This document shows, one piece after another, positions 2-1,215 of a DNA stretch of 64,000 nucleotides. Under the pieces are notes generated by a model that was given only the letters and a program-made list of their open reading frames with translations, was not told the DNA's origin and did not search any database. A program made the position numbers and the translations under genes. Position 1 is the stretch's first letter, and each line of letters opens with the position of its first letter. The stretch comes from Gammaproteobacteria bacterium (GTDB lineage Bacteria > Pseudomonadota > Gammaproteobacteria > Arenicellales > Poriferihabitantaceae): the NCBI GenBank assembly GCA_026709505.1, contig JAPOSW010000094.1, forward strand, positions 1-64,000, written 5' to 3'.

Positions 2-347
2 TGGAGCCCGCAGAGGGATTCGAACCCCCGACCTGCTGATTCTTACCCGCTACCGCTTTCACGGCCCGGACATTCTGCCCGGTTTGGGGTCTGGACTTTC
101 TCTTCACCATCCCTGTGGGAAATGCATCCCATGCAGGGCTAAGGTGGGCGGTGTAAAGCCTCTACACTCAATGTCGAAATACCGACATCTAGCACGGGAT
201 TGCCATTCGCCCTCCACAAGGATCTTGCAACTCTTGCAAAGGGGAGTCAGGTTTCCCCGTTTTAGCCGCCTCCACTTGAAGGGTTTCCCGTCCAAGGTGC
301 AATGTTCGTTTACAAATCAGCTGCTCTGCCAGCTGAGCTATGCGGGC
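2..347 (-). tRNA. tRNA-Thr(UGU), split by an intron; exons complement(312..347) and complement(2..41), CCA encoded
   Basis: Minus strand: GCCCGCATAGCTCAGCTGGCAGAGCAGCTGATTTGT | intron | AATCAGCAGGTCGGGGGTTCGAATCCCTCTGCGGGCTCCA. The 7-bp acceptor GCCCGCA/TGCGGGC, D-arm, anticodon stem GCTGA/TCAGC with loop TTTGTAA, T-arm GGTTCGAATCC and CCA all form. The joined exons give a 76-nt tRNA. Confidence 0.95.
42..311 (-). ncRNA. Group I self-splicing intron (IC3-like) in the tRNA-Thr anticodon loop, ~270 nt, no ORF
   Basis: 5' exon ends in U36 and the intron ends in G. P1 can form as UGU^AA/UUGCA with U.G at the splice site. Core strings GGGAAACC, GGGCGAATGGCAA, GTGTAGAGGCTTT...CCGCCCACCTTAG and ATGGTGAAGAGAAAGTCCAG parallel the Azoarcus tRNA-Ile intron. 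P7 GGCUUU/AAAGUC pairs. Confidence 0.92.
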
Positions 348-1215
348 CAGCTTGGCTAGGTCGAAGCCTGTCCAGAACAGTCGCCAACCATGCGTGGATT
401 GTATTCGGTTAATGCCGGATATTCAACCATCCCGCTTCACTTTGCACAAGGTCGGGTCATCAGCACCCAACAGGCCCGGCATTGCAGCGCATTGACCGCA
501 TGATCGCTATCAGCGGCCGAACCGGTTCAAGAAAAGGTCCGCCCGGTGCAAAGCAGGCCTGAGGCCTGCACAACGCCCAAAGCCACACCCCGACGATCAA
601 CCTTGATGCCCGATGATGCGGCCCCCTTCAGGTCAATGCTGGATACGGTACTCGACACCATGTCCAGCACTGCCGTGAATGAATGATGGATACCAATGTA
701 GCCTTTCTCCACTACCATGCTCCCGCCACTCTTCATGACAGTCTCGCCGACAGATTGGCCTGGTTCCTGCAGTCAGGCCTGCTTCCCATGGACATGGCTG
801 GAGAGCGAGGATAAGCAACGCAGACAACATTCTGGTTTTACATCTTCTTGCCGGAAATGACCATAAATCAACACGGCATGTACGAATGCAGCATAGCACT
901 CTTGACCTGGGCGCTCCTGCCTCGCTGTTGTATGAATTGTGAATCCAAGAGGCCTTAATCATTGCGACCAAGCGCCGGGCGGCATAGGTTTTGCTTCAGT
1001 TGATTTACCGCAATATCGCATTGCGAAACGGGATGAAAGGGCCAGCACCTTGAAACAATGTGCTGCATTGGGGGGGTACAGGTTTCATATCTCCTTCAAT
1101 CAAAAAAACCTGTCTTGGTCAAAGGACTGTTTTGTTAGAATGGCCTAATCGCCTTTTCCCGGTCAAGCTGGATTGACGCCGTGCCACCGAGTGCTACTCA
1201 CTCCGGCTATTTTCT

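Follow-up and report, generated by a model that had tools for sequence, protein, structure and literature searches.

The window analysed here is a 64-kb stretch of DNA that starts with the first base of contig C69 in a gammaproteobacterial genome (3.50 Mb, 130 contigs, 94% complete), and at its very edge lies an interrupted tRNA-Thr(UGU) gene. With introns allowed, ARAGORN reports this gene as tRNA-Thr(tgt) c[2,347], that is complement(2..347), with 76 tRNA bases and a 270-nt intron inserted at 36/37; when run without introns the program misses it, and its sole call in the window is a tRNA-Leu(CAG). The 5′ exon (312..347, minus strand, from the intron-mode call and the call on the spliced product) holds the 5′ strand of the acceptor, the D arm, the 5′ strand of the anticodon stem, U32, U33 and the anticodon UGU. 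The IC3-type group I intron (42..311, minus strand, bounded by cmsearch and ARAGORN) lies between U36 and A37, and the ARAGORN-defined 3′ exon (2..41, minus strand) supplies A37 and A38, the 3′ strand of the anticodon stem, the variable loop, the T arm, the acceptor and an encoded CCA (4..2). The CCA is at the contig edge, and both exons and the intron are complete inside the contig. Upstream of the tRNA, a consensus scan found a tentative sigma-70-like promoter (TTGAAT-17-TACAAT; 398..426, minus strand), one match against 0.4 expected and so weak evidence. The ORF list shows no homing-endonuclease gene within the 270-nt intron.

An initial annotation, made from the letters alone, had described two tRNA halves 270 nt apart that join into a perfect 76-nt tRNA-Thr(UGU) with CCA, with the insertion between U36 and A37, and this is borne out by ARAGORN. 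The same program, given the joined exons as that annotation had suggested, again calls tRNA-Thr(tgt), a standard 76-nt tRNA with CCA, in which cloverleaf and UGU anticodon are all present once the intron is removed. The sequence also confirms that the 5′ exon ends in U and the intron in G, and that UGU^AA can form a P1 helix with UUGCA in which a U.G pair falls at the splice site. Spliced products of all 113 Thr intron records that we parsed (some of them one genome present in two collections) are likewise tRNA-Thr(tgt).

The initial annotation had proposed Rfam model RF00028 as a test of group I identity, and this proposal failed: the Thr intron is matched neither at the gathering score nor at E-values up to 10. 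Relatives reach at best 34.2 bits against a cut-off of 50; within the same genome the Rfam model gives 52.2 bits for the Leu intron and 46.3 bits for the Arg(CCU) intron. The miss is a matter of the library threshold, not the lack of a biological defining feature. Since RF00028 fails on this intron, we used a purpose-built covariance model, trained on 13 introns from Arg(CCU) and Leu(UAA) genes in the order, with no Thr intron among them. As the IC3-type check that had also been suggested, it succeeded: it matches the Thr intron from 274 to 42 at 80.1 bits (E=2.6e-20, a rough value because calibration was shortened, although the margin is large), as the sole hit in the window, and the hit stops exactly at the terminal intron G. 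It also recovers all 42 other Thr introns tested, at 45-134 bits, and across the whole genome gives exactly four hits, which are the Arg(CCU), Leu(UAA), Thr(UGU) and Arg(UCU) introns. Four same-genus genomes carry the intron in the same gene, 79-86% identical; with the model E-value obtained in 64 kb, these orthologues exclude chance.

The helices P1, P2, P3, P4, P5, P6, P7, P8, P9.0, P9 and P9b were drawn from the window sequence and then checked on 18 related introns (all coordinates that follow are on the minus strand). The guide, or IGS, UUGCA (298..302) is predicted from sequence and pair table to form P1 with UGU^AA (314..310), and its UU can pair with A37 and A38 of the 3′ exon as P10. 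The U.G pair at the splice site is found in 18/18 aligned introns, and the guide fits each host's own exon: UUGCA/GCA for UGU^AA, GGG for CCU^ and GAG for CUU^. P2 is a hairpin with a GAAA loop (275..296; 95% of cells paired, and 6/8 pairs changed on both sides among the 18 introns). In P3, GGCGG (266..270) pairs with CCGCC (147..151, read 151..147), both strands showing compensatory changes, and across the Thr introns of gammaproteobacteria (23) and Firmicutes (20) pairing in this helix is 100%, again with compensatory changes; the Arg(CCU) and Leu introns and the Thr introns of Rhodobacterales fail to align with the window in this register of P3. P4 pairs ACGGGG (255..260) with UCCCGU (199..194), its pairs are kept, and it turns from A-U to U-A between the gammaproteobacterial Thr set and all other sets. 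P5 joins CC (250..251) to 204..203, and its pair 73-121 is always paired across sets, as C-G, G-C, A-U, U-A or G.U. The P6 hairpin (170..189) is 93% paired with 7/7 pairs changed on both sides, and P8 (112..137) is an approximate hairpin that forms in the window and aligns poorly in relatives, with 59% of cells paired. The 3′ domain (45..90) comprises P9.0 (90..87 with 48..45), P9 (82..66) and P9b with a GAAA loop (65..52); P9b is 100% and P9.0 90% paired, and P9/P9b show compensatory changes.

The predicted guanosine-binding site lies in P7, whose 5′ strand GAGGCUUU (155..162), with a bulged A, pairs with AAAGUCC (93..99, read 99..93). The G-C binding pair of this helix is kept in 81/81 introns and the bulged A is conserved. 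A core from P3 to P8 with the P3/P7 pseudoknot is present, with the pairing and covariation given above, together with the terminal intron G. The initial annotation had seen a compensatory change in P7 relative to the Azoarcus intron; this stands for a U-A versus A-U pair, but not for the A-to-G change at the second pair, which gives a G.U wobble in place of A-U in the window copy and is absent from the 22 other gammaproteobacterial Thr introns. The same A-to-G change was observed at the second P7 pair of an Arg(UCU) intron in a same-genus genome (G004, L054 c[1459,1806]).

Taken over the 18 introns, 93.6% of cells are paired, against 81.7% in shuffled alignments and 38-48% with slid partners, a control which leans in the structure's favour because the structure was read from the window. 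Changes on both sides were found at 26 pairs, and 0/500 shuffles reach any of the five observed measures. The Firmicutes Thr introns, which were not used for drawing, show P3 paired in 100/100 cells and P5 in 40/40, with other base pairs. Such compensatory changes across relatives show that the intron fold is under selection; the exons are near invariant and the peripheral loops of the intron diverge in length and sequence. An independent model, helix covariation, orthologues and our failure to detect an intact copy (below) all support the initial proposal of a group I intron in tRNA-Thr(UGU) at 36/37. To judge from its fold and its relatives, the Thr insert is an IC3 tRNA intron of ordinary mechanism, predicted to splice as such introns do.

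We consider it very probable that this intron self-splices from the pre-tRNA to give a tRNA for ACA, transcription, splicing and essentiality all being predicted from the sequence. The pre-tRNA would be transcribed and the intron would fold from P1 to P9, with the guide UUGCA holding the 5′ splice site via the U.G pair. A guanosine bound in P7 would attack after U36; the freed U36 would then attack after the terminal intron G, while P10 would hold A37 and A38, and the ligated exons would form the tRNA reading ACA. ACA codons are used in the nearby genes queA, tgt and glyA. Under the decoding rules neither Thr(GGU) nor Thr(CGU) is expected to read this codon, so splicing is probably needed for growth. 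If this is true, ACA decoding in the cells that carry the intron would depend on splicing by a ribozyme.

That reading has to be weighed against a dead intron, in which the window gene would be a tRNA-Thr(UGU) pseudogene and a different tRNA, encoded in sequence missing from the assembly, would read ACA. We found no intact tRNA-Thr(UGU) in the draft, although at 94% completeness some room is left for such a copy in the missing part, and the position of the tRNA at a contig edge gives the idea some purchase, as does the G.U beside the guanosine-binding pair of P7, peculiar to the window copy among gammaproteobacterial Thr introns. Against this, both exons make a perfect tRNA, the fold is under selection across relatives, and the two forms of the gene exclude each other in the order: among 109 genomes, the Thr intron junction is present in 23, an intact Thr(UGU) in 59 and both in none, the remaining genomes showing neither form, as expected of drafts. 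The 22 further genomes of the order that carry the intron, one of them scored 100% complete, likewise yielded no intact copy; we regard a dead intron as very improbable. Outside the order, no intact Thr(UGU) was found in 14/16 intron-bearing Rhodobacterales and Firmicutes genomes. An intact Thr(UGU)-like anticodon stem-loop was observed in two intron-bearing genomes (G487 C57:39897-39915; G476 C66:61538-61556).

An artefact of assembly or binning, in which a chimeric contig end joined unrelated tRNA halves and an intron, would be in keeping with a gene sitting at contig base 1, but the intron and both exons all lie within the contig and the order has 22 other genomes with the same arrangement, so that we give this explanation hardly any weight. 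In the relatives examined with enough sequence, the interrupted gene heads a cluster tRNA-Thr(UGU)-Tyr-Gly(UCC)-Thr(GGU), which matches the E. coli gene order thrU-tyrU-glyT-thrT-tufB, and the contig break of the window probably falls within this repeat-rich stretch. Equally negligible, in our view, is removal of the insert by proteins (a tRNA endonuclease and ligase), or an insertion of some other type, rather than by a ribozyme. Use of such an endonuclease system is not known from bacteria, and a complete IC3 core, a terminal G, a U.G pair at the 5′ site and the match to a group I model at the E-value given above all speak for the ribozyme, even though 36/37 lies near position 37/38, the canonical site in archaea and eukaryotes (PMC4033280).

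The initial annotation had suggested searching other bacterial tRNA-Thr(UGU) genes. A junction pattern scan of 85,000 species found at least 115 loci, a count from which prevalence is not derivable, and which places the same host gene and site in gammaproteobacteria (the order included), Clostridia/Bacilli and Rhodobacterales. Among the matches listed, the gammaproteobacteria include records named Arenicellales, Acidiferrobacterales and Acidiferrobacteraceae; those listed outside this class are mostly MAGs of Clostridia and Bacilli, many of them recovered from the guts of animals; and at least 6 loci are from Rhodobacterales, including the cultured Salipiger aestuarii DSM 22011, Paracoccus rhizosphaerae LMG 21293 and Ruegeria strains. 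One match (L143, Arenicellales bacterium r_call13) is the same intron as that of a same-genus genome, G003, so the window probably comes from an Arenicellales-like gammaproteobacterium. When 369 genomes were drawn evenly from the class, the window's genome was the only one to show the junction. The related introns are 205-343 nt long. Three scan matches (L145, L194 and L202) look like chance matches and were set aside, as were several ARAGORN labels with misplaced boundaries: His (L042, L053), Tyr (L043) and SeC/Ser/Arg(ACG) (L082, L085, L089, L090) were reparsed as Thr(UGU), Arg(UCU) or Arg(CCU), and an Ile(TAT) label in Rhodobacterales is really Thr(UGU).

In many of the Firmicutes Thr introns P1 is extended into a long helix of about 10 pairs, GGGAUAG with CUAUCUUGCA (L091, L096, L098, L111 and others), and these loci come after tRNA-Lys/Glu or tRNA-Val genes. 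The Rhodobacterales Thr introns (L093, L106, L172, L195, L197 and L204) differ in P1 extension and P3 register.

In a tree of 81 intron cores, with guide columns left out, the introns group according to their host gene. The Thr introns of gammaproteobacteria and Firmicutes form one group (97/90), to which neither the Arg(CCU), Arg(UCU) and Leu(UAA) introns nor the Thr introns of Rhodobacterales belong, and a single clade of all Thr introns including those of Rhodobacterales is neither demonstrated nor rejected (AU p=0.35); the short alignment and flagged long branches make this tree suggestive only. Within the order, intron presence requires 12 changes for 12 genera against a shuffled mean of 16.3, and the genera mostly cluster, which fits mainly vertical inheritance. 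One carrier (L041, genome G079) belongs to family f3, where most other members have an intact Thr(UGU); this could reflect either loss elsewhere or transfer. We propose, as a view on which we are evenly balanced, that an old group I lineage, specific to its host gene, resides in tRNA-Thr(UGU), that its gammaproteobacterial and Firmicutes members go back to a single origin, through descent or an ancient transfer, and that it has been kept mostly vertically, without homing endonucleases and with no spare copy detected in nearly all genomes checked. The Rhodobacterales Thr introns may be a second arrival, possibly through a separate, independent insertion into that position.

Group I introns in bacterial tRNAs serve as textbook cases of how old introns can be and how they spread. 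The Thr introns offer a new data set on the long-standing question of whether these elements descend together with their host gene or pass from one tRNA to another, a question made testable by the cultured carriers. The lineage is missed by standard tRNA annotation and by Rfam, and explains an apparent loss of tRNA-Thr(UGU) from genome annotations.

Considering known relatives, the proteobacterial tRNA-Arg(CCU) IC3 intron shares with the Thr intron its site at 36/37, core and terminal G, and a model built in part from such introns detects it, but it differs in host gene, guide (GGG versus GCA), P3 register and sequence, and falls in a separate clade. The cyanobacterial/plastid tRNA-Leu(UAA) IC3 intron, which is also found in this genome, has the same ribozyme architecture, but is inserted at 34/35 with the guide GAG, again in a separate clade. 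The Azoarcus tRNA-Ile(CAU) IC3 intron is, like the Thr intron, small, lies at 36/37 and has GAAA loops L2 and L9 and a U.G splice site; the host gene differs. As a lead, the Rhodobacterales Thr introns may be nearer to the Azoarcus intron than is that of the window.

The initial annotation had listed Leu(UAA), Arg(CCU), Ile(CAU) and fMet as the known bacterial hosts; these are indeed reported, but the list was incomplete, as putative group I introns of tRNA-Arg(UCU) and tRNA-Leu(UAA) are described in the large sulfur bacteria Beggiatoa/Thiomargarita (PMC4853749). These are also Gammaproteobacteria, and the same two host genes are interrupted in the genome studied here; tRNA-Thr is not mentioned as a host in that paper. 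Inserts of only 22-49 nt in the Arg, Gly and Lys tRNAs of cyanobacteria have also been claimed as group I introns (PMC5733544); in our view this length does not suffice for the fold. We found no earlier bacterial tRNA-Thr group I intron in the open-access literature, and both this host gene and its breadth appear to be new; the suspected novelty of the host holds on this literature, but the intron is no peculiarity of the window, being present also across a gammaproteobacterial order, gut Firmicutes and Rhodobacterales.

The genome carries four group I tRNA introns, so that four tRNA genes of one bacterium would need splicing. Besides that in Thr(UGU), these are a 213-nt intron in tRNA-Leu(UAA) (L001 c[1417,1716]), a 215-nt intron in tRNA-Arg(CCU) (L002 [1477,1768]) and a 302-nt intron at 34/35 in tRNA-Arg(UCU) (G000 C51:17318-17527, minus strand; L011 c[1099,1477]), this last interrupted gene sitting between those for tRNA-Pro(UGG) and tRNA-His.
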